Source: a virus. From it: 40,590 nt of DNA. The position numbers and the translations under genes were made by a program. Within the stretch, counting starts at the first letter, position 1, and each line of letters begins with the position of its first letter. Shown one piece after another: positions 15,360 to 40,590 of the stretch. Under the pieces are notes generated by a model. It ran no database searches. It was not told the DNA's origin and was given only the letters and a program-made list of their open reading frames with translations. The stretch spans positions 1 to 40,590 of IMG/VR virus record IMGVR_UViG_3300049215_000827, one strand, 5' to 3'.

Positions 15360-15901
15360 TTTCCCAGGAATAGGTCAAGGTTTTTTCGGAAGCTGGCGAC
15401 CCTGTCCTCCTCCATGAAGTAGGCGCTTATCGTCCGGGACTCCAGGTGGCTCGCGCGGATCGGTATTGCTTCCGTTGCGTAGCCCGCGTTCCTCACCCGC
15501 AGCAGGAAGTCGTTGTCGCCGTAGCCCAGGCCGCCGTCGTACGCCTCGTCCCATGGCACTGCGTCCAGGATCTCCCTCGGCATGCAGAGGCACGAAGCCT
15601 CAAGCTCAGGCTCGCCCGTGAGGTGGAACTCCGTCCACTTCCACGACGTGACGGTGCCGGGCTTGGCCAGCCTCTCCAGCCACTCGGGGTCGTCCACCAT
15701 GAAGTCGTTGCAGAGGAAGACTATGTAGTCCCCCTTCGCTTCCCTCGCGGCGCGGTTGAAGGCGCGGACGCCGCCCTTCTCGGACGCCTCGATCAGCTCG
15801 AAGTCACGCGAGTTCGCCCACACCCTCCCCCTGCACTCCGCCGTCATCTCCGCGAGGAGGCCCTGCGGGTCGTAGTTCATCAGTATCACGCTGTATCTCA
15901 T
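15329..15901 (-). CDS. Family 2-type glycosyltransferase (GT-A)
   Basis: 190 residues. It begins with a short strand M-R-Y-S-V-I-L-M-N-Y. The S-E-K-G-G-V-R-A-F-N-R-A segment is the typical GT2 helix, and G-D-Y-I-V-F-L-C-N-D-F is the donor/metal site (N-D in place of D-D). Later, G-G-L-G-Y-G-D-N-D-F resembles the E/D-D acceptor-site motif. It is short for the family, so it may be a minimal catalytic domain. It overlaps its neighbours on both sides, so the three transferases form one translational unit. Confidence 0.75.
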   Translation of the reverse strand: MRYSVILMNYDPQGLLAEMTAECRGRVWANSRDFELIEASEKGGVRAFNRAAREAKGDYIVFLCNDFMVDDPEWLERLAKPGTVTSWKWTEFHLTGEPELEASCLCMPREILDAVPWDEAYDGGLGYGDNDFLLRVRNAGYATEAIPIRASHLESRTISAYFMEEDRVASFRKNLDLFLGKWPDHRKYLS

Positions 15902-18194
15902 GGTCCCAGAGTTGCGCGACCTTTTCCCAGGAGAATTCCTTGGCCGCCCCCTTCGCCTTCGCCCGCTCGTGCGCCATAAGCCCGTCGTCCCCGGCGAAGC
16001 GCATGACGGCGTCGACGAACTGCTCCTGCCAGTTCGGGTCGTAGGGGTCGCCGGGCATGGCCAGACCCGACTTCTGCGTCTCGGCGAGCGCCGCGAAGCC
16101 GGTAGTCAAAGGGATCACGCCTGCCGCCTGCATCTCGCAGGCCGTTATGCAGTGGATCTCGGGGAAGTAGGTCGGGTAGATCCAGAACGATGACTTAAGC
16201 TGCTCGACCGCAAGCTCCCTCTGCCCCCTGCGCCCGTGGTCGAGCACTCCGGGCTGGCTCGCCATCGCCTGAATCCTCTTCATCCATGACATGCGCTCGG
16301 GGTTGTCCTTCTCCAGCCGGTAGAACGTGTTCCACCCGTAGAAGACGTGGAGTTCCGCGTCCGGCAGGCGCTCCCTGATCCTCGGCCACATGGTCAGCAC
16401 GACGTCGAGGCCGCGGTTCGGGGTCGACGAGTATATGAAGCGGTGAGGCTCACGAACGGGGACGTTCGGCATGTCCCAGCGCGATAGGTCGATGCCGTTG
16501 CCGATCACCGTGAACTTGGAGTCGGGGACTTTCGGGTAGAGCGAGCGGTGGTACGCGGTCTTCACGAATACCCTGTCAATCCGCCCAAGCCTCTCCTCCG
16601 TGAGGTCGAACTGGCTCATCGTGTCGTGGAGGTCGAGGACTGATATCCTGGCGGAAAGCGGCAGGTCAAAGAGCTCGGGATGCCGCCATACCCACAGCGC
16701 GTCGTAGTCGTCGTGCGGGTTGAACGCCCAGTAGTTCCTCCACTTGACGCCGTTTACGGTCTCGCCCTCCGGCGGCCAGTTGCCCTCGTTGAATACGGTG
16801 ACGTCCCAGCCGATCCTGGACAGCTCCTGGGTCAGCTTGATGACGGCCGTCTCGGACCCTCCGATGCCCTTGCCGTCCTCGTCGCCGGGACGCCACGGCT
16901 CGGCGGTCGCTCCGCAGTAGACGGCTATGGACTTCTCCGGCCACTCCTTCGGCTTCAGGTACGTGTGCGCGAGCGAGAGGTAGACCTCGTCGTCGGCCAT
17001 CTCCCTGGGGAACGAATGGAGCAGGGGCAGTATCTTCTGCTCCTGCTTCGAGTCCATGAGCGCCTTCGCGATCGTGACGTAGCCGTTCCTCACGCGGAGC
17101 TTCGCGAGCTCGGGGTCGATCATCGCCCTGAGCTCAAGCGCCTCCTTGAATTTCGGGTCTGCCTTCAGGGCCGCCCTGACTGCCCTGTCCGCCTCGGCGA
17201 GCATCCCGAGGTTGAGGTAGCAGGCGGAGATCCCCACGTAGACGTCGCGCCTCACCTGCATCGGGTTGTGGTACGTGGCGCCCTCCGGCTCGGCCATGCC
17301 CAGGGACGTCTTGTAGTTGTAGAGCGCCTTGTTCCACTCGCCCTTCATGAGGTACGCGGTGGCCTTCTGGACGTAGGCGTCGGGGTATTCCTCCTTCTCC
17401 AGGATCGCGTCGTTGTACGACTTCAGCGCCTCGTCCAGCTGGCCTGTCTTCACGAGCGCGTTGCCGATCAGTATCCGCGCCTCGTAGCGCTCGTCGTCCC
17501 AGCCGGATACCGAAAGGTAGTCGAAAAGCACGTCAACCGCCTTCTGGCATTCGCCCAGCGCGAGATACGTGCGGCCGAGGTAGAACTTCGTGCGCGGCTC
17601 CTTGGGGTCCCTCTCCGCCTCCCTGAGGAGGATTCTCAGGTTGCGCTCTATGCTCGCCTTCGGCCGCCCGCCCTCCGCGTGGTGGATGCGCCCGATGGCA
17701 GGCGACTTGACCCACCTGGCCTGCCCGTTCGGGAGCATGTCCTCGTGGATCGCGCCCTTCCATCGCCAGTGCCCGTCGTTCCTGGCCAGCTGGAGCTTCC
17801 AGTGGTCGTCGACGCAGTTCCCGTTCCCGTCGAACGAGTACTGGTACCGGAGATAGCAGCCGTTGATGCGGCCCCTCTCGCACTCGTCGACGAGGTCATG
17901 GAGCCTCTCGGCCCCCGCGAGCGTGTCGTCGGCGTCGAGCCACAGGTACCAGTCCGCCTTCACCTGGGAGGCGTTGAACTCCCTCGCGGCGCTGAAGTCG
18001 TCCGTCCACCCGAAATGCGACACGTTCGCCTCCCACTTCCCGCAGACCCTCTCGACCGCTTCGTTACTCCCGGTTACCGTTATCCACACGCTGTCCACGT
18101 AGGGGGCGACTGACTCCAGGCACCTGTCAAGGTGCTTCGCCTCCTCGTCCGTCGGTGCCACGATCATGCCGAGGCCGATTGTCCTGTTTTTCAT
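15804..18194 (-). CDS. Three-part glycosyltransferase: GT2 domain, TPR repeats, GT4-like domain
   Basis: 796 residues. Residues 1-190 are a GT2 domain with W-L-D-A-D-D-T-L at about 84-91 (metal/donor site) and a W-K-G-A-I-H-E-D segment. Residues about 195-365 are tetratricopeptide-like repeats (TKFYLGRTYLALGECQKAVD, VQKATAYLMKGEWNKALYNY). Residues about 430-760 look like a GT4/GT-B domain: G-I-G-G-S-E-T-A at the start, Y-S-S-T-P-N-R-G-L-D, and F-P-E-I-H-C-I-T-A-C-E-M at the donor site. It probably builds at least two linkages of a glycan. The C-terminal 30 residues overlap the next gene. Such a fusion is unusual in a phage structural block. Confidence 0.75.
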   Translation of the reverse strand: MKNRTIGLGMIVAPTDEEAKHLDRCLESVAPYVDSVWITVTGSNEAVERVCGKWEANVSHFGWTDDFSAAREFNASQVKADWYLWLDADDTLAGAERLHDLVDECERGRINGCYLRYQYSFDGNGNCVDDHWKLQLARNDGHWRWKGAIHEDMLPNGQARWVKSPAIGRIHHAEGGRPKASIERNLRILLREAERDPKEPRTKFYLGRTYLALGECQKAVDVLFDYLSVSGWDDERYEARILIGNALVKTGQLDEALKSYNDAILEKEEYPDAYVQKATAYLMKGEWNKALYNYKTSLGMAEPEGATYHNPMQVRRDVYVGISACYLNLGMLAEADRAVRAALKADPKFKEALELRAMIDPELAKLRVRNGYVTIAKALMDSKQEQKILPLLHSFPREMADDEVYLSLAHTYLKPKEWPEKSIAVYCGATAEPWRPGDEDGKGIGGSETAVIKLTQELSRIGWDVTVFNEGNWPPEGETVNGVKWRNYWAFNPHDDYDALWVWRHPELFDLPLSARISVLDLHDTMSQFDLTEERLGRIDRVFVKTAYHRSLYPKVPDSKFTVIGNGIDLSRWDMPNVPVREPHRFIYSSTPNRGLDVVLTMWPRIRERLPDAELHVFYGWNTFYRLEKDNPERMSWMKRIQAMASQPGVLDHGRRGQRELAVEQLKSSFWIYPTYFPEIHCITACEMQAAGVIPLTTGFAALAETQKSGLAMPGDPYDPNWQEQFVDAVMRFAGDDGLMAHERAKAKGAAKEFSWEKVAQLWDHEIQRDTDELRPAGPPRGDDGGVQGEGVGELA

Positions 18195-30267: not shown

Positions 30268-30321
30268 ATGGATGATTCGGACACCGGCCGGGCGGTCAGT
30301 TTCGCGGAGGCAAGGAACTGA
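30268..30321 (+). CDS. 17-residue leader peptide coupled to the primase
   Basis: ATG 30268 to TGA 30321, preceded by AAGGAGGTGA with a 5-base gap, the strongest ribosome site in the window. Its stop overlaps the primase ATG by one base (TGATG). The peptide MDDSDTGRAVSFAEARN has no motif. It may serve to set the rate of primase translation by coupling. Confidence 0.45.
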   Translation: MDDSDTGRAVSFAEARN

Positions 30322-30725
30322 TGCGGGACGGGAAACCATACCTCGACTACAGGGCGATCAAGGGGACAGCGAAAGTGGAAGCCGTGCTCGCACGGTACGG
30401 GAAGACCCTGCGGCGGCTCACGGCCGCGCAGCTCGTCTGCGACTGCCCCCTGCCGTCGCACGACAACCCGAAGAGCAGGGGCACGTTCAAGGTGAGCGAG
30501 CCGAAGAACGCATGGATGTGCCACCACTCGTCGTGCAAAAAGCTGGGCGGCGGGAACGTGATCGACCTGGTCATGCGGCTGGAGGGCGTGGACACCTACG
30601 GTGCGGCGAGACTGCTCTCAGAGTGGTTTCCCGTTAACGGGAATCCGAACGGAAAGAAGCCCGAACCGAAACCGGCGGAGGGTCACCCACGGGTGAGGCA
30701 AACAAGCCGCTCGCCTGGACTCTGA
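30321..30725 (+). CDS. Primase, N-terminal zinc-binding part (reading frame 1 of 2)
   Basis: 134 residues. The CHC2 zinc-binding domain of DnaG-like primases is clear: C42-P-L-P-S-H47, then W-M-C67-H-H-S-S-C72, followed by G-G-G-N-V-I-D-L-V-M. The domain binds template DNA. After about residue 115 the sequence becomes Arg/Ser-rich and ends, whereas in the -1 frame coding continues into the TOPRIM part. The protein would thus be a truncated DNA-binding primase subunit unless a frameshift joins the two. The start is the TGATG overlap with the leader peptide. Confidence 0.8.
   Translation: MRDGKPYLDYRAIKGTAKVEAVLARYGKTLRRLTAAQLVCDCPLPSHDNPKSRGTFKVSEPKNAWMCHHSSCKKLGGGNVIDLVMRLEGVDTYGAARLLSEWFPVNGNPNGKKPEPKPAEGHPRVRQTSRSPGL
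30683..30696. repeat. Palindromic 14-mer, copy 2 (at the primase frame switch)
   Basis: Same TCACCCACGGGTGA as at 806-819. It lies within the overlap where the primase changes frame. The flank (GAGGCAAACAAG) matches the flank of the shorter relative at about 31604-31624 (GAGACAACAAG). Its closeness to the frame switch makes an effect on translation conceivable. Confidence 0.4.
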
Positions 30726-30730
30726 AGGAC

Positions 30731-31222
30731 GTGAACCCGGTCCATCCCATGATCCAGGACCGCGGCATATCGGTGGAGACAGCCGTGAAGTGGAACGTCG
30801 GCTACTTCCCGGGCAAGGGAAGCATGGAGGGTCGGATAGTCTTCCCGCTCTACGAGGACGGCCATCTGATCGGCTATGCCGGCCGCACGACCCTCGAAGT
30901 CACCGACGCTAACCCGAAATGGAAGCTGCCGGCTGGCCTTCACAAGACCTTCCTCTACGGGCTTGAGCGCTGCGACCCCAAACGCACCCTCCGCCTGGTC
31001 GAGTCCCCGTGGACTGTTTTGCAGATGGAGGAGACGGGCTACCAGGCGGCCTCGCTGCTGGGCAGCTCCATGACGCCCGAGCAGGAGAAGCGGCTTGACC
31101 CGTTCCGAACGATCGTGGTCGAGATGGACGACGACCCCGCAGGGCGCGAGGCAAACGAAGCGATCGCCGCCCGTCTGAAACGGGACGGACGGCTCATCTA
31201 CAGGTCGCTGTGGAAAGGATAG
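30731..31222 (+). CDS. Primase, RNA-polymerase core / TOPRIM part (reading frame 2 of 2)
   Basis: 163 residues from a GTG at 30731, but the frame is open from 30638 and the upstream codons (A-N-K-P-L-A-W-T-L-K-D) already look like primase. It has the RPD segment G-R-I-V-F-P-L-Y (34-41) and a TOPRIM domain: V-E91-S-P-W, then V-E-M-D133-D-D135-P-A-G. These residues bind metal for primer synthesis. The GTG lacks a Shine-Dalgarno site, so translation probably depends on a frameshift or coupling with the zinc-binding part. A terminator follows 8 bases downstream. Confidence 0.75.
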   Translation: MNPVHPMIQDRGISVETAVKWNVGYFPGKGSMEGRIVFPLYEDGHLIGYAGRTTLEVTDANPKWKLPAGLHKTFLYGLERCDPKRTLRLVESPWTVLQMEETGYQAASLLGSSMTPEQEKRLDPFRTIVVEMDDDPAGREANEAIAARLKRDGRLIYRSLWKG

Positions 31223-32111: not shown

Positions 32112-32855
32112 TTAGGCCGCAAACAGCTCCTGCTGGCCTGATTTCTTGGCGGGTGCTGTTTCCCGTTCCTGCTTCGGGATCTCGCGCTCCCACATGAACC
32201 CGCCCTTGCCAATCCGCCATTCCGTGTAGAACTCCATCGTGAGCGTGTTGCCCCAGTAGATCGTCGCATTGAGGTCGAAGATGTACATGTTGAGAGCGGC
32301 CATCTTCGCGCATCGGTGGTCGAGATCGCATCCGGTGATGAGGGCGTTCGGGTTCTGCTTGCCAGCTTCGATTAGCATAGTGCCACTACCGCACGCGGGA
32401 TCATTCACACTCTCACCATCTTCAACTCCGAGCATCTTCACTATCGCTGTGCTTATATGCTGCGGCGTGAAGAACTGCCCATGCTGGCCGAAAGTGATCA
32501 TGGCCATGTAGATTTCGCCCAGTACGTCGGTGCCGCTCTCGGTCGTCGCCTTGACCAGTTCCCTGGTCGCGGCGGCAAAATAGTCTATCGCCCGCTTGCT
32601 CTTTGGATGGTCGTCGGCATAGCGCTTCGCGATTTCCATATAGCGGTCTTCATAGGTTCCGTCCAGCTTATTAGCCTTCAGCTTCTCTTCGAAGTCTGGC
32701 CGCGATAAGTTATCGGTGACGGAGAGATAGGCAGCGAGCATCAGATCGAGCCAATCTTCGAAGACGCGCTCAGCCGATCTTCCGTAAGAAACCTGCTCAA
32801 GATCCTTCCATACCTCGCGGCCGTGGTGAAGGTCGCTGACGTTTCTTTTTTTCAT
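32112..32855 (-). CDS. N6-adenine methylase-like protein, no motif IV seen
   Basis: 247 residues. It carries the HsdM-like motif X Q-F-F-T-P (127-131) and the SAM-binding motif I D-P-A-C-G-S-G (152-158), with D178 in I-T-G-C-D-L-D as the usual adenosine contact. The catalytic N-P-P-Y/F tetrad expected some 40-60 residues later is absent; the region reads Y-W-G-N-T-L-T-M-E. Comparable short proteins are found on plasmids and integrative elements. It may be an inactive SAM-binding or DNA-binding protein, or the catalytic residue may sit elsewhere. No restriction enzyme or specificity subunit was seen nearby. Confidence 0.7.
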   Translation of the reverse strand: MKKRNVSDLHHGREVWKDLEQVSYGRSAERVFEDWLDLMLAAYLSVTDNLSRPDFEEKLKANKLDGTYEDRYMEIAKRYADDHPKSKRAIDYFAAATRELVKATTESGTDVLGEIYMAMITFGQHGQFFTPQHISTAIVKMLGVEDGESVNDPACGSGTMLIEAGKQNPNALITGCDLDHRCAKMAALNMYIFDLNATIYWGNTLTMEFYTEWRIGKGGFMWEREIPKQERETAPAKKSGQQELFAA

Positions 32856-33184: not shown

Positions 33185-33487
33185 TTACTCCCCCTCTTCC
33201 TCGGTCTCCTCCGTCTTCGCCACCTGGCCTGCGAGGAACCGCATGACCTCCGACTCGAACTCGATCTTGTTGTCCATGGTTTTGGTATGTGATAGGTTCA
33301 CGACCTTTGCGCCGTTCCGCGTCGCGGCGGCTTCGGCTACGGGGAGGGTTCCCTGCATGTCAAGGTGGATCGACCGAAATTTGCCGCTCGCGTCTCCGGA
33401 CGCGGCGGCGGAGGGTCGAAGTACCTTGACATGCAAGGGAAGAGTCCCCGTAACGTTAACCGAGCGCGACGGGAACTTCCCTGTCAT
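33185..33487 (-). CDS. Small protein overlapping the large palindrome
   Basis: 100 residues from ATG 33487, which overlaps the stop of the upstream ATPase gene as ATGA. The C-terminal 30 residues are acidic (MDNKIEFESEVMRFLAG..., EETEEEGE) and could alone be the true gene: their ATG at 33278 has the local A/C-rich leader (ACATACCAAAACC). The middle of the longer form is the translated palindrome at 33338-33452, giving the mirrored peptides G-T-L-P-L-H and M-Q-G-T-L-P. The start choice is therefore open. Confidence 0.45.
   Translation of the reverse strand: MTGKFPSRSVNVTGTLPLHVKVLRPSAAASGDASGKFRSIHLDMQGTLPVAEAAATRNGAKVVNLSHTKTMDNKIEFESEVMRFLAGQVAKTEETEEEGE
33338..33452. repeat. 115-base nested palindrome at the end of the ATPase module
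   Basis: Outer arms of about 30 bases (33338-33366 and 33423-33452) pair with few mismatches, including ACCTTGACATGCA with TGCATGTCAAGGT. Inner pairs are TCGACC (33370-33375) with GGTCGA (33414-33419). The core is GCCGC-t-CGCGTC (33383-33394), loop TCCG, GACGCG-GCGGC (33399-33409). The whole can fold into one long hairpin or cruciform. A further half-copy TTCCCTGTCATG occurs at 33477-33488. Such structures serve as transfer or replication origins or recombination sites. Confidence 0.7.
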
Positions 33488-34749
33488 GCCGCAAGCTCGG
33501 CCTCGATCCTGCGCACCACGTCCTCCCTCGGCGTCCCGGTGTTGGCCTCCGCCCACGCCTTCGCCTTCCGCGCCGGCATCTCGTCGCCCTCCGTCTCCGG
33601 CTTCTCGAGCAGCCTTACGTCGTCGCTCGCGACCGGCTTCCCGTCCTCCATGGTGAGCGCCCTGAACGTGAAGTTCGGGAGCGTGACCAGCCTGTCGGCC
33701 TGACCCGCGTCGCCGAAGTTCGCGGCCACCTGCTCGGAGTCCGCGGCGCTCATCCTGAACGCGAAGATGTGGCTGGCGTTGCCGAACGCCACCGCGTCGT
33801 TGTCCTCGCCGGACTGCCGCATCTGGCGGATTGTCTGGGTGGCGAAGAGGTAGTGGACGCCGTTCTTCCGCGACTCGGCCAGCATGGTCTCGAAATCAAC
33901 TCCGGCCAAAAATTTGTGTACCTCGTCCACGACGACAAGCACCGGGCGGTTGCGCTTCTTCCGGCGGAAGCTGGCCAGGTTTATTTTGGAAAGAATGAGC
34001 GAACCGAGCACCCGCGCCGGGCGCTCGCCCATCACGCCCTTGGGGAGCCGGCACAGAAGTATCTTCTGCCGGTCGAGCATCGACTTGAAGTTGAGCGAGC
34101 GCGGCTGGCACAGGAACTCGCGGAGGCCGGGGCGAAGCATCTCCTCCACCTTGTTCGCCGGGTGGCTCCACGCCCTCGCCCGGTCGAGCGGCTTGAACTC
34201 CACGAAATACTTCCAGTGGAAAGCCTTCACTGCCGGATTCCTGCATGCGCCGAGCATCCTGTTGGCGTACCGGCTCTCCGTCAGGAACCGCGCCAGGTGG
34301 AGCATGGTGGGACGGGACTGCGTCTCCATCACGGCGTCGATCGCGTTCCTGAAGATGCTCGCGGTCTCGGGCCCCCAGCCTATCCCCGAAAGCGATTCGA
34401 GCAGGGACATCAGCGACTGAACGGTCTGCTCGGCGTCGGGGCCGTCGAACACGCCGATGTCGGGGACGCAAGGGGAATCGGGCGCCAGGTACATCAGGTC
34501 GCCCTTCCTGGAATTGGGGACGTAGTTCAGGCAGTCGTACACCAGGTCGCCGTGCGGGTCGATGACGGCCACGCCCCACGATTCGCGCAATGCGGCGGCG
34601 ACTATGCCGCGGAGGAGCGTCGACTTGCCCGTTCCCGACTTGCCGAGCAGCCATCCGTGGCGGAAATTGGCCCTGTCGATCGATACCTCGAACGGGACAG
34701 GCCTGTCCCCGAAGAGCGGGGTTTCGGCGTGGCCGAGGGTGACTTGCAT
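33484..34749 (-). CDS. VirD4/TraD/HerA-like ATPase
   Basis: 421 residues from ATG 34749 (longer readings shadow the upstream gene). Walker A is G36-K-S-G-T-G-K-S43, followed by I-D-P-H-G-D-L-V (63-70), a segment typical of HerA/TraD-like DNA pumps. Walker B is V-L-V-V-V-D275-E-V-H, and F-A-T-Q-T-I-R-Q-M follows as the sensor. Such ATPases move DNA through a hexameric ring, in conjugation, partition or resection. A 100-base gap with a hairpin (34780-34804) separates it from the Replic_Relax gene. No T4SS genes are in the window. Confidence 0.8.
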   Translation of the reverse strand: MQVTLGHAETPLFGDRPVPFEVSIDRANFRHGWLLGKSGTGKSTLLRGIVAAALRESWGVAVIDPHGDLVYDCLNYVPNSRKGDLMYLAPDSPCVPDIGVFDGPDAEQTVQSLMSLLESLSGIGWGPETASIFRNAIDAVMETQSRPTMLHLARFLTESRYANRMLGACRNPAVKAFHWKYFVEFKPLDRARAWSHPANKVEEMLRPGLREFLCQPRSLNFKSMLDRQKILLCRLPKGVMGERPARVLGSLILSKINLASFRRKKRNRPVLVVVDEVHKFLAGVDFETMLAESRKNGVHYLFATQTIRQMRQSGEDNDAVAFGNASHIFAFRMSAADSEQVAANFGDAGQADRLVTLPNFTFRALTMEDGKPVASDDVRLLEKPETEGDEMPARKAKAWAEANTGTPREDVVRRIEAELAA

Positions 34750-34849
34750 GGTTGCATGGTTAGGATTCCCGCCGTCACTCCCGCTCCCCTTAGTCGGGGG
34801 CGGGAATAATGGACGGGCTATCCCGCGCTTCCGCGCGATTAAGCTAACT

Positions 34850-35719
34850 CTAATGCGAATCGCCGAAAAAGCCATACGCCTCGCCGCGGAAGTCCTTCGG
34901 AGTCCAGAAGATCTTGCCGGAGAGGTCCGACTTCCACATCGCGGAGTGCGTGAGCCAGAACCGGCGCGCGCACAGCGCCTTGTCGTCTTCCAGCTTGGAG
35001 AGAAGCCGGGCGACGCGCTCCTCGGTGGGAAGCAGCAGTATGACCCTGAAGTCGGGATGCCCGTAGCGCTTCCTGAACCCGTCGCGGTAGGCGAGATACG
35101 CTTCGAGCTTGCGCACCAGGTTCGACTTCCCTTTCCTGTATTCCGACTCGTGCGAGCGCACCATCTCGACGAACCAGCACGACTCGCCGATCCTGAAGTA
35201 GGCGTCCGGGATGATCGACTCGTGGCCTTCCACCTTGTCCAGAAGGTCGCCGCGCCACTGCTTCCATTCAAAATCACGGATACTGTTTCTGGAAGCAAGA
35301 TGCACTTTGAGCGCAAGGTGGAACTGGGTTATCGCCGTATCGTGCTCGACGGTCATGCGGGACTTGTCCTGGACGAAACGGACTGACGGGGCGAGCCCCA
35401 TGTCGGCGGCAAGCCTGGCTCCGCGCTCCGCGAGGTAGTACACCCATGGGGGAGAGATCGACGAAAGCGAGTCGTCGTCGGCGGGCCTGACCCGGTTCAC
35501 GACCGCGCCCCGGTGCATGGCGAGCAGGCGGTGCCTGACCCCGGAGTCCCTGAGCCCGGTGGCCTCGCAGACCTGCTCCGCCGTCATGAAGACGTACTCC
35601 GAGAGCGCCTCAATGATCGGCCGGTCGAGGGGGCTTGAACAGAGCCGCCGGTTTCTTCTTTCCGGCGGCTTTTCCGCCGCCGTTTCCGTTCGCGTGGTTT
35701 CCGTCTGAGTTTTTTCCAT
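34850..35719 (-). CDS. Replication-relaxation family protein
   Basis: 289 residues. The N-terminal third has a winged helix (LDRPIIEALSEYVFMTAEQV, then GLRDSGVRHRLLAMHRGAVV). The central part has an H-D-T-A-I-T-Q-F-H segment and a PD-(D/E)xK-like core, I-I-P-D-A-Y-F-R-I then W-F-V-E-M-V-R, as in the Replic_Relax group (PF13814) of plasmid proteins linked to DNA relaxation. The start overlaps the preceding ATPase gene by 110 bases, so it must be co-translated with it. This is an unusual gene for a tailed phage. Confidence 0.7.
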   Translation of the reverse strand: MEKTQTETTRTETAAEKPPERRNRRLCSSPLDRPIIEALSEYVFMTAEQVCEATGLRDSGVRHRLLAMHRGAVVNRVRPADDDSLSSISPPWVYYLAERGARLAADMGLAPSVRFVQDKSRMTVEHDTAITQFHLALKVHLASRNSIRDFEWKQWRGDLLDKVEGHESIIPDAYFRIGESCWFVEMVRSHESEYRKGKSNLVRKLEAYLAYRDGFRKRYGHPDFRVILLLPTEERVARLLSKLEDDKALCARRFWLTHSAMWKSDLSGKIFWTPKDFRGEAYGFFGDSH

Positions 35720-37211
35720 AGTCCGGTGGTGAAACTGGTGGGGCTGGCGGCGCGATCTGGCGCCGGGATTCCCTGAACTCTAGCACCCTTTCCTCGGTTT
35801 TCAAGTGGCCGGGCGCCAGGAACTCGGTGAGCTCGGGCGTCTCCCCGGCGGTGGCCTTCCCGCCGCGCCAGACCCAGTGGCGCCGGGGCTGCGACACCCA
35901 GTTCATGGCGTGCTCGGCCGCCATGCCTATCTTGTCCTCGCGGCTCCATTCCATGATCGACGCAAGCCGCTCCTCGATCACGGACAGGTAGCGCACGTCG
36001 AGCCGGCGGTGGACAGACCTGGTGAGGGCGCCGTTCGACCCGAGAAGCACGTTGCCCTCGGCGTCCTCGCGCTCGCTCTCGCCCTCGGTCTCCGCCTCGG
36101 CTGAATCCTCCATCTCCTCCTCGACGCGCTCGTGGCCCACGGTCATGGGGACGTATATCCGCTCCTTCTCCATGCGCCGGTTGACCTCGGACAGGAACGC
36201 GAGCTCGGCGAACTCCTTGGCGTCGGGGAGGCTCGGGAATCCGAACCAGAGCTGGGTGGCGCAGTTGGCCTCGATCGAGGCCCAGAGCCTGGCGTTGGAC
36301 TCCCTGAACTGCCTGGGCGAGTGGCCGATGATCGTGACCGGCAGCCCCCCGCCCAGGGCGGAGTCGAGCATGTCGCACGCCTCGGGCGGGAGCCACCGCT
36401 GCGCCTCGTCGAGGTACGTATAGAAATAATGTTCGGGCTTGGCGCCGGCGGCCGCCCGCTCCATCGCGGCATCGAGGAACGCGTACGCCAGAGCGGCCAT
36501 CGCCGCGCGCGAAGCGTCCGCGTCGAGCATGGTGAGGTTCGGCGCGAAGTTCGCTATGACGATCTCGCGGTTGGCCAGGCATTCGCGCGGGTCGAGCGGG
36601 CGCGGAGCCGCGGCGCACTTCATGAGCGCCTTCGAGTCGGCGAACCGGCTGAGCCTCCGCAGGGCGGACCCGGTCTTCCCCTCCCATTCGCGGTCGGGGG
36701 TGCTCATGAGTGCGACCCATTTCTGGCGGAGCATGGTGTCGGGCAGGCGTTCGAGTATCCACTCGCGCACGGTGCCGTTGTGGCGGTAGAGCGCGAGCGC
36801 CGCGTCCCGGAGCGGCATGCCGGTCACGGCAATCGATCCGAACACGGCCTCCGCCGTCTCCCTGAACTGGGGCATGAGGTCGGTGTCGGCCCTGCCGGAA
36901 CCCCATCCGGCGGCCGCGATGTCCGTCATCCTGCGCCCGAATACGCCGGGGTCTGCGCCCGGCGCCGGCCGGAACGGGTCGAACGCCGCGTCGCCGGCGC
37001 TGAAGTCGAGCAGCCAGACCCTGCGCATCGGGCGCACGAAGGCGAGCCACCGCTCCATGAAGCGGTAGCCCTCGCCCTTGGGGTCGGCGTACATGAACCC
37101 GCTGCCGGATACGGTATGTTGCCGCATGCACCAGTGGGCGTGGCGCGACTTGCCGCGCTGCGAGGGGCCGTAGTAGACGGCATGGGTGATGGGTCTCCAG
37201 TCTGGGTGCAT
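35610..37211 (-). CDS. TraG/VirD4-like coupling ATPase
   Basis: 533 residues. Walker A is G15-P-S-Q-R-G-K-S22 near the N-terminus, then Y-A-D-P-K-G-E-G at 41-48. Walker B is Y-T-Y-L-D268-E-A-Q-R-W, followed by a sensor-like G-H-S-P-R-Q-F. A Glu/Asp-rich segment (about 355-385) and a Lys/Gly/Pro-rich tail end the protein. No N-terminal membrane helices are seen, unlike classical coupling proteins. The upstream base AGGA suits a weak ribosome site. It heads the three-gene module, next to the palindrome-rich gap 37212-37508. Confidence 0.75.
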   Translation of the reverse strand: MHPDWRPITHAVYYGPSQRGKSRHAHWCMRQHTVSGSGFMYADPKGEGYRFMERWLAFVRPMRRVWLLDFSAGDAAFDPFRPAPGADPGVFGRRMTDIAAAGWGSGRADTDLMPQFRETAEAVFGSIAVTGMPLRDAALALYRHNGTVREWILERLPDTMLRQKWVALMSTPDREWEGKTGSALRRLSRFADSKALMKCAAAPRPLDPRECLANREIVIANFAPNLTMLDADASRAAMAALAYAFLDAAMERAAAGAKPEHYFYTYLDEAQRWLPPEACDMLDSALGGGLPVTIIGHSPRQFRESNARLWASIEANCATQLWFGFPSLPDAKEFAELAFLSEVNRRMEKERIYVPMTVGHERVEEEMEDSAEAETEGESEREDAEGNVLLGSNGALTRSVHRRLDVRYLSVIEERLASIMEWSREDKIGMAAEHAMNWVSQPRRHWVWRGGKATAGETPELTEFLAPGHLKTEERVLEFRESRRQIAPPAPPVSPPDYGKNSDGNHANGNGGGKAAGKKKPAALFKPPRPADH

Positions 37212-37272
37212 ACCGTCCTGGAAAGGGCAGTCGCCGTTGCCGTTTCCGCGCCGGTAGGCTGGCGGTCGGTGG

Positions 37273-37390
37273 CGCGACTCCGGAGGCCGTAGGCCGTCCT
37301 GTTCGGGTAACTGCCGTCGGTCGCGGTAGCGAAAGCGCAGCCGGTAGGTTGCGGTTAGACGGTAGTTACCCGAACAGGGAAGGAGTCGCG
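37273..37390. repeat. 118-base palindrome with GTAAC-type repeats, putative origin region
   Basis: The gap 37212-37508 (297 bases) holds no gene. The arms CCTGTTCGGGTAACTGCCGTC-like (37298-37318) and its inverse (37358-37378) match at 20 of 21 positions, and outer 9-mers CGCGACTCC (37273-37281) and GGAGTCGCG (37382-37390) extend the symmetry. TAACTGCCG-type 9-mers recur at 37308, 37360 (inverse), 37412 and 37456 (inverse). A replication or transfer origin, or the operator of the ATPase operon, is plausible. Confidence 0.6.
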
Positions 37391-37508
37391 AACCAGTGGA
37401 ACCGGCGGCGGTAACCGACGGAACCTATTGGGTTTTCCGCGTAGCGGAACGTAGTCGGCAGTTATTGGTTTCGTGCCCCCCGAGGCATGGGCGCGGCACA
37501 GGACGGTT

Positions 37509-38726: not shown

Positions 38727-39542
38727 GTGGCGCGCTGGATTATAGACAAGAAAGGCTACGAAACGGAGCGCGACAAAAGGGGATGGAACAACGCCGACGT
38801 AACCGAGCATGCAAAGGTATACGGCGTAAGCATCTCTGACTCGACCATCTCAAACTGCTACAGCCCGCACATAGGCTGTTCGCAGAAATATGCGTTCGCG
38901 GTCTGCACGGCTCTTGGCTTCAGACCTTGGTGGAAGGGGCTCATCAAGGAACACCAGGAAATCTTCGCGGATACTGAACCGCTGGCAGGGACGGAATTTG
39001 TTCCCGTGATCATGTCCCACCGTTCCGAAGAAATCGGCGACGAATACTACCGGAAAGCTCTGGCCAGCGGACGCGACGTGATCTACGTGAGCATAATGTC
39101 GGAACACTCGTTTCCTTATTTCGAGGAATGGCTTAACCCCGAGACAAAAGTATCGGTCCTCACATGGAACCCTGAGACGACAAACGAGATACGTGCGTTC
39201 GAGACGCACATAAACGAGGCAGGCGACCACGTAAAACAGACACGGAACGCGCTGGATATGTGGGACCGCGTCGCTAAGTCCAATGGGAACGTCAAAATAT
39301 TCACCTATAGGTCAACGCCGACACTGCAGGGCGTCGTGGTTATGGGCGGATGGGCGAAGGTCGAGCTGATGACCTACGCAACCCCCACGCAACTGAGATC
39401 GGCAATCCTTCTTCGTGAGAGTGAAGCTTCAGAGCGCCGAATGTTCAGGTTCATGGCCGGCGCTTTCGCCGACCTCCTGAAATCGGCCAAGAAAAGAGAT
39501 CCAGGCGATCCGCCGGACTGGGAACGCCCTACTTCACCCTGA
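38727..39542 (+). CDS. Repressor-like protein: N-terminal HTH-type domain, novel C-terminal domain
   Basis: 271 residues from GTG 38727, 6 bases after AAGGAGG. Residues 1-70 look like a DNA-binding domain (RGWNNADVTEHAKVYGVSIS, then CSQKYAFAVCTALGF). The C-terminal 170 residues have alternating beta/alpha segments: D-V-I-Y-V-S-I-M-S, V-S-V-L-T-W-N-P-E, V-V-V-M-G-G-W-A. No phosphotransfer, protease (S24) or RecA-dependent dyad motifs were seen. The pattern is reminiscent of phospholipase-D-like ligand-binding folds without catalytic HKD motifs, which is weak inference. Its place divergent to the HTH gene and next to the integrase fits a lysogeny repressor. Confidence 0.6.
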   Translation: MARWIIDKKGYETERDKRGWNNADVTEHAKVYGVSISDSTISNCYSPHIGCSQKYAFAVCTALGFRPWWKGLIKEHQEIFADTEPLAGTEFVPVIMSHRSEEIGDEYYRKALASGRDVIYVSIMSEHSFPYFEEWLNPETKVSVLTWNPETTNEIRAFETHINEAGDHVKQTRNALDMWDRVAKSNGNVKIFTYRSTPTLQGVVVMGGWAKVELMTYATPTQLRSAILLRESEASERRMFRFMAGAFADLLKSAKKRDPGDPPDWERPTSP

Positions 39543-40590
39543 CAAGCTTGGGCGACCTGTCCCAGGTGGACTGCACGGCGAGCTCCAAAGCGTCCTGCCG
39601 CGCCTTGATCCACGGCGCATAGTGACGCTCGCAGACGCGCACCGTATTTGAAAGCAGGATCGCCACGTTCTCGATCGAGACGCCGTTCACCAGAAGGCGG
39701 CAGGCGAACGAATCCCTGAACCGGTGCGGGTGCGCGTGCTTCACCCCCGCTTTCTTCGCCGCGTTCTTCAGCCTCACGCGGTAGCGCTCGGCCACCGACA
39801 CCGGGTTCTCGGACTCCACCACGAAATAGAAACCCCCGGTGAGGGGGATCTTCGATAGGTCGGAAATTAAGTCGGGCGGAAGCGGGACCCATACGGGATG
39901 CCCCGTCTTCTGCGCGTACAGGAACAGCTTGCCGTCCGTGATGCGCTCCGGCCTGAGCGACGCCGCGTCGATGATGCGGAGGCCGGAATGGAGAAGCACG
40001 CGGAAGAACACCTGCGAGCGGAAATCGGAGTTGGCCAGGATCCCGGCGATCTCGCCGTCCGTGAATGGCAGCGTGGGGTTCGGCCTTACCTGCGGGGCCT
40101 TGATGGCTTTCGCGGGGTTCGCGGCGATCCAGCCGCTTTCCTGGCAGAAGCGGAAGAGTGAGCGGATGCGCTCAATTTCCTTAGATGCCGTCCGAGGACC
40201 GAGTTTGGATGAATTTCGATAGACACGAAGCGTTTCCGGGGTGATTTCCGCAACATCATCAATGCCGCGCGAAACAAGGAAGGCGGAAAGGCTGCCTGAC
40301 AGTCGCCGATATTTCCCGAGGGTCGATCGGTTGAGATTCCGGCTTTCGCAGTCCTGGACGAACGCGGCGAGCGCGGCTTCGACGGTGACTTCTTTTTCCT
40401 CTTCCTTCCCATGTTCGATGTCTGATTTGATTTCTTCGGCGCGCTCCCAGCTCGTGACGTCGAGCGATTTGCGCACCGGTTTTCCCTCCGTCGTCCCCTG
40501 AATCCAGATCGGGCACTTGCACCGCTTGAACGTCCGCCCTTTGGCTTTGTGCTGGCAGACCGCCAGGTGGCGGCGGTAGAGGGTGAGCAA
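39529..40590 (-). CDS. int: Tyrosine recombinase integrase
   Basis: 353 residues visible; the TTG at the window edge may not be the true start. An N-terminal C-x-H...C-x-C-P-I-W cluster (12-29) is typical of a subfamily of bacterial/phage integrases. A SAM-like core-binding domain follows (75-165). Catalytic residues: R205 in H-S-G-L-R, K228, H289-R-F-R292, and Y324 in E-R-H-Y-A-P-W. The usual L-G-H before the tyrosine is L-S-N here. It converges with the repressor gene, overlapping by 14 bases. It would integrate the genome into the host chromosome; the att site should lie just outside the window. Confidence 0.85.
   Translation of the reverse strand: MLTLYRRHLAVCQHKAKGRTFKRCKCPIWIQGTTEGKPVRKSLDVTSWERAEEIKSDIEHGKEEEKEVTVEAALAAFVQDCESRNLNRSTLGKYRRLSGSLSAFLVSRGIDDVAEITPETLRVYRNSSKLGPRTASKEIERIRSLFRFCQESGWIAANPAKAIKAPQVRPNPTLPFTDGEIAGILANSDFRSQVFFRVLLHSGLRIIDAASLRPERITDGKLFLYAQKTGHPVWVPLPPDLISDLSKIPLTGGFYFVVESENPVSVAERYRVRLKNAAKKAGVKHAHPHRFRDSFACRLLVNGVSIENVAILLSNTVRVCERHYAPWIKARQDALELAVQSTWDRSPKLVRVK

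Follow-up and report, generated by a model that had tools for sequence, protein, structure and literature searches.

A relaxosome-like gene module with a putative DNA hairpin origin in tailed phages and its possible role in phage genome replication

Relaxases of the MOBC superfamily, to which the Pfam family Replic_Relax (PF13814) belongs (Coluzzi et al., 2017, PMC5357655, Table 1), consist of a winged helix-turn-helix (wHTH) domain and a restriction-endonuclease-like domain, and no covalent intermediate was detected for them (PMC12857230). The relaxase of plasmid pAD1 binds five direct repeats located 70-120 bp from the nick (PMC12857230). Pairs of an ATPase gene and a Replic_Relax gene are already known, without known function, in Bacillus phages (PMC3853050, PMC9658697). 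In this study, we report a larger set of this kind in the IMG/VR virus record IMGVR_UViG_3300049215_000827, a single record of 40,590 bases that was analysed at full length and is referred to as the window (W). Its carrier is a temperate tailed soil phage, in which an integrase, TerS, TerL, a portal-like protein and a major head protein were identified. The set consists of a Replic_Relax gene between two ATPase genes (ATPase1 and ATPase2), with a large hairpin upstream, and viruses with this kit probably copy or move their genomes by nicking DNA in the manner of plasmids.

The module resembles the MOBC relaxases with their coupling proteins and origins of transfer (oriT), as in pAD1 (TraX/TraW) and CloDF13 (MobC/MobB), in its PF13814/MOBC assignment, in the combination of wHTH and restriction-endonuclease-like domains, in the neighbouring coupling-protein ATPase, and in a large inverted repeat with repeated short motifs near the genes, comparable to the pAD1 bind site with its five repeats (PMC12857230). 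It differs from them in being carried by tailed-phage genomes devoid of type IV secretion system (T4SS) genes, in having two ATPases and a DnaG-type primase and, in the relatives, a separate subunit with two transmembrane segments (2-TM). The FtsK/SpoIIIE-Replic_Relax pair of Bacillus Pagevirus (Pony, Page, Pascal, Pavlov) and of phages Novomoskovsk and Bolokhovo shows the same succession of an ATPase gene and an overlapping Replic_Relax gene, and a short hydrophobic open reading frame (ORF) was seen in the sequence before the ATPase; unlike the window module, this pair has a single ATPase and almost no sequence similarity, and a DnaA-like initiator is encoded separately. Integrative mobilisable elements and rolling-circle integrative and conjugative elements (ICEs) such as ICEBs1, with a MOBT relaxase and an FtsK-like coupling protein, gather an integrase, a relaxase-type protein, an FtsK/VirD4-class ATPase and a hairpin origin in one small cassette, and in ICEBs1-type elements that origin serves both replication and transfer. 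An integrase, a relaxase-family protein and a candidate oriT-like hairpin are also present here, but the carrier encodes capsid, tail and terminase and the relaxase family is another one. As far as our tools show, the novelty lies in a two-motor set with membrane subunit and primase, accompanied by a conserved putative hairpin origin of single-stranded-DNA type and spread in Acidobacteriota phages.

The three genes of the window are all encoded on the minus strand: ATPase2 (35610-37211, 533 aa), Replic_Relax (34850-35719, 289 aa) and ATPase1 (33484-34749, 421 aa), in this order. A previous interpretation made from the letters alone, hereafter the sequence-only reading, had described two Walker-motif ATPases flanking a Replic_Relax-like gene in one overlapping operon. 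The arrangement was confirmed by the coordinates and by Pfam or profile matches; as to the overlap, it exists between ATPase2 and Replic_Relax (110 nt), but Replic_Relax and ATPase1 are 100 nt apart.

The gene set is conserved. Ten relatives were recovered, namely seven further IMG/VR phage records, two contigs of Acidobacteria metagenome-assembled genomes (MAGs) and one apparent chromosomal prophage, and they came only via ATPase1 and the hairpin pattern described below. Replic_Relax and ATPase1 were present in all of them (10/10) and ATPase2 in nine, so that the trio, proposed in the sequence-only reading as a conjugation-like DNA-processing module of a temperate phage, also stands together in other phages. 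The ATPase1 search yielded the IMG/VR contigs G001 (54 kb) and G002 (18.8 kb), a broken copy (G003) and the Acidobacteria MAG contigs G004 and G005. The order ATPase2, Replic_Relax, ATPase1 is shared by G001, G002 and G005, while G004 has Replic_Relax and ATPase1 without ATPase2. Identity of the window proteins to those of these four contigs was 52-63% for ATPase1, 23-28% for Replic_Relax and 14-23% for ATPase2. When IMG/VR was scanned with a single Replic_Relax or ATPase2 sequence, no relatives were returned, both proteins being too diverged. Among GenBank phages the module DNA had no match, and the best protein matches were SPO1-type VirD4-like proteins (about 24%); plasmids searched with a Replic_Relax relative gave no match.

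Outside the module, only the integrase and a few further window proteins had matches in the relatives. The head and tail genes are unrelated (head protein phrog_1328 in the window; an HK97-type head protein and a tape measure in G001) while the module is common, and therefore the module travels between phage types. In the 156-kb contig G259, the gene set lies 2.5 kb from its hairpin, which is beside the primase, and is followed by ORFs that by eye resemble terminase, portal and head genes, for which reason this contig is taken as a prophage in a chromosome. A tRNA-Ser 3'-end remnant adjoins the module in G001 (L005 95-120) and an intact tRNA-Ser does so in G002 (L004 681-768), which is an attachment-site context. 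The integrases of G001, G402 and G404 are related to that of the window (tyrosine integrase, 39529-40590, minus strand, Pfam Phage_integrase 4e-11) and are sited beside the module or across the circle from it. A chromosomal ICE joined by misassembly was considered and rejected, since nine more contigs that have phage terminases or an attachment-site setting show the same arrangement; the trio is genuine and not the product of an assembly accident. It recurs, and in the phage records tested it was never beside VirB4 (PF03135), which was not found in W, G001, G402, G404 or G405.

The Replic_Relax protein matched PF13814 at 4.5e-17 and the same family was recognized in 9/9 homologues. Since this family is a MOBC relaxase family, a relaxase candidate is present in the window, and the earlier statement that neither a relaxase nor a T4SS gene occurs there holds for the T4SS part, as judged by the absence of VirB4, but no longer for the relaxase. 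Modelling with AlphaFold2 (AF2), also suggested in the sequence-only reading, gave a clear N-terminal wHTH for Replic_Relax, with a predicted local distance difference test (pLDDT) score of 80, and a poor model for ATPase2 (pLDDT 54.6). The wHTH (residues 27-108) superimposed on a MarR-type wHTH (7el3_B) with a Z of about 12 and a root-mean-square deviation of 1.7 over 75 residues, and a fold search with the whole model returned wHTH proteins alone. The C-terminal part was modelled as helix 121-142, strands 150-154, 173-177 and 180-186, helix 200-219 and strand 224-230, an alpha-beta-beta-beta-alpha-beta order that appears to be that of PD-(D/E)XK nucleases. In the relatives, PD and ExE fall at the strands expected for this fold; PD and E are invariant, and P171 D172 ... 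E185 are kept in the window. The wHTH and restriction-endonuclease-like architecture of MOBC relaxases (PMC12857230) agrees with the modelled secondary structure.

A large hairpin lies upstream of the operon in each of the relatives found through ATPase1. There it has an outer stem of 12 bp and an inner stem of at least 17 bp, the base of which reads CGACGGG; small hairpins whose loops are TATC, TACC or TAGC are also part of it. Viral contigs were scanned with a pattern made of the inner arms only (CGACGGGCA, 50-80 bases, TGCCCGTCGC), which gave 27 loci. The flanks were shared by seven of these, G001, G002 and five new contigs (G401-G405); all seven carry the three genes, and hidden Markov models run on all 27 loci detected module genes in no others. 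The pattern TCTANCGACGGGN{50,80}CCCGTCG occurred three times in 396 Acidobacteriota genomes, twice beside the module (G004, G259). The arm-only pattern led back to the trio, so hairpin and genes are linked.

RNA helices that change much between relatives usually contain some G-U pairs. Across the two stems of nine loci, which are related and hence non-independent, we counted 261 base-pair cells, of which five were unpaired and none was G-T, with 14 columns covarying between Watson-Crick pairs. Because no G-T pair occurs despite these 14 columns, the hairpin is, to judge from its covariation, selected as DNA and not as RNA. Additionally, the strand opposite the coding strand contains mini-hairpins of the forms C(GATA)G, C(GGTA)G and C(GCTA)G; loops of the types C(GNNA)G and C(GNA)G are unusually stable in single-stranded DNA. 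In the same nine related loci, on which the motif had been spotted before counting, there were 25 such mini-hairpins on the non-coding strand versus 2.6 in shuffles (maximum 9, 300 shuffles) and none on the other strand.

In the window, the proposed origin is a two-tier hairpin at 37274-37388 containing a putative nick-site region, with outer arms at 37274-37281/37381-37388 and inner arms at 37298-37318/37358-37378. The inner palindrome (37298-37378) has 21-nt arms that are 95% complementary and folds with a z of -6.2 relative to dinucleotide shuffles. It could not be aligned with the hairpins of the relatives, yet it is likewise built in two tiers, and neither the order of the tiers nor the polarity differs from those of the nine. 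Four C(G[N]TA)G mini-hairpins are clustered at 37250-37449 on the plus strand, opposite the operon, versus 0.39 in shuffles (maximum 3, 300 shuffles), and nowhere else in the 40.6 kb do three or more cluster. As the motif was derived from the relatives, the window count is an independent test. To our knowledge, an array of C(G[N]TA)G mini-hairpins has not been described for a MOBC oriT. The inverted repeat upstream of FtsK in Pony, of similar span, was tried as a counterpart and rejected, since it is absent in Pascal and is therefore a chance or unrelated feature; unlike the window hairpin, the Pagevirus upstream repeat contains no mini-hairpins, and it varies among the phages of that genus.

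With respect to the motors, ATPase1 is a soluble coupling-protein/HerA-type ATPase according to alignments and to Pfam matches with TrwB_AAD_bind, TraG-D_C and DUF87 (E from 4e-7 to 6e-6; TrwB_AAD_bind and TraG-D_C above cut-off). Its 610-aa ORF is over-extended, the homologues placing the start at about 34749. It is the best-conserved gene of the module, with 32-34% identity to the group other than G001, G002, G004 and G005, and many plasmid ATPases were matched at 20-30% identity. The copy in G003 (L007 433-1809) is frame-broken and runs into HNH-like sequence. ATPase2, a diverged coupling-protein-like ATPase, matched Pfam marginally by itself (TraG-D_C, E=0.055), and its family profile matched DotL (1e-8) and TrwB (2e-6) among PDB sequences; a TraG/TrwB-class Pfam match was obtained for 5/9 family members, and the window protein retains Walker A (GPSQRGKS) and Walker B (YTYLDEA). 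A P-loop ATPase of the TraG/TrwB class was thus found twice, by Pfam for ATPase1 and by family profile for ATPase2. In most relatives a 2-TM protein gene directly precedes ATPase2, and in G402 both are fused (700 aa); the window ATPase2 corresponds to the ATPase found behind this segment or fused with it. Such a pattern would be as expected for a coupling protein split in two. TraI/TraJ of plasmid pIP501 is a split coupling protein with a soluble ATPase and a membrane segment on a separate small protein, and may be a parallel case; unlike pIP501, the window module lacks the corresponding T4SS. In the window, no transmembrane segments were seen by reading in proteins P0001 or P0003, and no 2-TM gene was found upstream. 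At the place expected for ATPase2 in G004 (L008 8553-9003) there is an unrelated ORF (MDDLYYRASKETARQ...), the motor being replaced by something else.

A DnaG-type primase also accompanies the module; like the 2-TM subunit of the relatives, it had escaped the sequence-only reading. It is split in the window into a zinc-finger half (30321-30725, plus strand), 34% identical to the N-terminal portion of its G259 counterpart, and a TOPRIM half in a separate ORF of another frame (30731-31222, plus strand), 36% identical to the C-terminal portion. Its strand is opposite to that of nearly all other genes and it is convergent with the operon. Primases with DNAG_N and Toprim_2 lie convergently downstream of the operon in G259, G401 and G402, and shorter or split matches do so in W, G001, G002, G004, G403, G404 and G405; none was found in the G005 fragment. 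A DnaB_C domain was absent from the eight phage records searched. The Walker A proteins of at least 120 aa in W were the two motors of the trio only, and those in G002, G402 and G405 were essentially the two motors and the terminase. Cumulative GC skew was near-monotonic across the whole contigs G001, G401 and G403-G405, with no switch at the hairpin and with the G-rich strand opposite to the module coding strand.

On these grounds we tentatively favour, with a probability of about 0.42, a relaxosome-like nick-and-displace module, composed of an origin hairpin, a MOBC-type Replic_Relax, one or two coupling-protein-type motors and a DnaG-type primase, which would most likely serve rolling-circle-type replication or processing of the phage genome. 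After excision or entry, Replic_Relax would bind the C(G[N]TA)G mini-hairpin array through its wHTH and nick one strand at the large hairpin; the ATPases, judging from their family, may then pull or displace the nicked strand, and the primase would start the complementary one. Replication of the own genome is slightly favoured over mobilisation because the early region is taken up by module and primase and the searches revealed no further replicative helicase. A more general statement, that otherwise unrelated Acidobacteriota phages initiate replication by a conjugation-derived relaxosome, with a MOBC-type nickase at a single-stranded mini-hairpin origin, a coupling-protein-type ATPase replacing DnaB and a phage primase, and that the same origin may allow exit by conjugation, is speculative and less likely than not.

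Several points weigh against replication as the function. We know of no coupling-protein-like ATPase acting as a replicative helicase, and a membrane-anchored ATPase2, with its 2-TM neighbour or fused as in G402, points to DNA transport rather than replication. The ATPase-Replic_Relax pair of Bacillus Pagevirus would not be the initiator there, given the separate DnaA-like initiator. The lack of other replication genes was judged from a single Pfam family and from Walker A motifs, so that an initiator lacking a P-loop may be present, and helicases of the host are available to a phage. No origin could be read from the GC skew. It must also be noted that the final acidic residue of ExE, kept in eight homologues, is Val187 in the window (E185-M-V187); with this residue gone and the membrane subunit not found, the window copy is diverged.

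The explanation competing most closely with replication, and one that we consider possible, is conjugative mobilisation, in which the hairpin would be an oriT, Replic_Relax the relaxase, and the 2-TM protein and ATPase2 a split coupling protein, so that the excised phage would leave through the T4SS of another element and gain a second route between cells. This reading and replication would share a nick at the hairpin, the driving of a strand by an ATPase and the availability of a primase. The MOBC assignment of PF13814, the proximity of the ATPase2 profile to the DotL/TrwB coupling proteins and the 2-TM subunit that adjoins or is fused to ATPase2 all agree with it, as does the siting of the module, which adjoins the integrase and the attachment site much as the genes of integrative mobilisable elements do. 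Primases have a role in conjugation too, Pagevirus keeps its similar pair beside a separate initiator, and the host MAG of one relative (G004) has a VirB4 gene. However, VirB4 was not found in three other MAGs, which are incomplete, nor in the tested phage records; no 2-TM gene was found beside ATPase2 in the window, and G004 has no ATPase2. A profile comparison with the CloDF13 mobilisation proteins gave no similarity, although CloDF13 MobC was not located among its ORFs. Mobilisation should also be dispensable for a phage, yet the module is in every relative recovered, a weak point because the relatives were selected by the module.

The sequence-only reading had also raised defence and plasmid-type partition, and no positive support was found for either. 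Defence or superinfection exclusion, with HerA-like ATPases and a PD-(D/E)XK protein destroying incoming DNA, is improbable: ATPase1 weakly matches PADLOC mad8 (8e-16) and HerA models, and the downstream N6-methyltransferase weakly matches mad2 among many methyltransferase models, but neither Replic_Relax nor ATPase2 of the window gave a PADLOC match and, of the neighbours tested, only the methyltransferase did. The matches are those of a generic ATPase and a generic methyltransferase, the full HerA/MADS partner set was not present, the HerA partners NurA and DUF4297 were not seen, and neither a conserved DNA hairpin nor a 2-TM/coupling-protein architecture would be expected. A shade less probable is the partition or maintenance of an extrachromosomal prophage, the reading given for the Bacillus phages Novomoskovsk and Bolokhovo, whose similar gene pairs were assigned to plasmid replication/segregation (PMC9658697). 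The fold of the pNOB8 centromere-binding protein AspA is one of many that the wHTH resembles; yet the phages described here integrate, as indicated by the integrases of W, G001, G402 and G404 and the tRNA remnants beside the G001 module, none of ParA, ParM and TubZ was recognized, and a nuclease-like domain is not a feature of partition. The least probable of the explanations is that the upstream palindrome is merely an RNA leader or terminator with no functional tie to the proteins. Its site upstream of the operon and its strong RNA fold would suit this, but an Rfam search at the hairpin gave no match, the stems contain no G-T pair in spite of their covariation, the mini-hairpin signature is confined to the non-coding strand, and in G259 the hairpin is 2.5 kb away from the genes, beside the primase.

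If replication through this module is true, phages would apply conjugation machinery to their own genome, and the boundary between phage replication and plasmid transfer would become less sharp. In this regard, phage Replic_Relax proteins gain a defined and conserved candidate DNA target, and the role of phage Replic_Relax/FtsK pairs becomes directly testable by binding and nicking assays on the hairpin. The hairpin also offers a DNA signature for locating such modules in metagenomes without protein similarity.

The sequence-only reading had further presented the module as bracketed by two palindromes. Both exist and fold far below dinucleotide shuffles; in gene orientation, that at 37.3 kb is upstream and that at 33.4 kb downstream of the operon. 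As a single design, the bracket was not sustained: the search for the trio elsewhere showed that only the upstream palindrome is conserved, and only it has the mini-hairpin signature. The downstream one, beyond ATPase1, spans 33318-33470 (core 33351-33438), with 25-nt arms that are 84% complementary and a z of -10.6; it contains no mini-hairpins, and nothing equivalent was seen at the corresponding place in G001, G002 or G005. At this position G004 has different, gene-flanking inverted repeats. In this Bryobacterales MAG contig, two small cassette-like genes follow ATPase1 (L008 11318-11640 and 11708-12188), each with its own perfect inverted repeat of 14-15 nt and shared ends GCGATTG ... CAACGC.

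Other genes of the window were also annotated. An N6-adenine methyltransferase (32112-32855) is sited between primase and module, and a 271-aa protein with no notable Pfam, PHROG or PADLOC match (38727-39542, plus strand) between module and integrase. Adjoining the major head gene, a 796-aa protein (15804-18194) gave two glycosyltransferase matches (phrog_13126 and phrog_2170).

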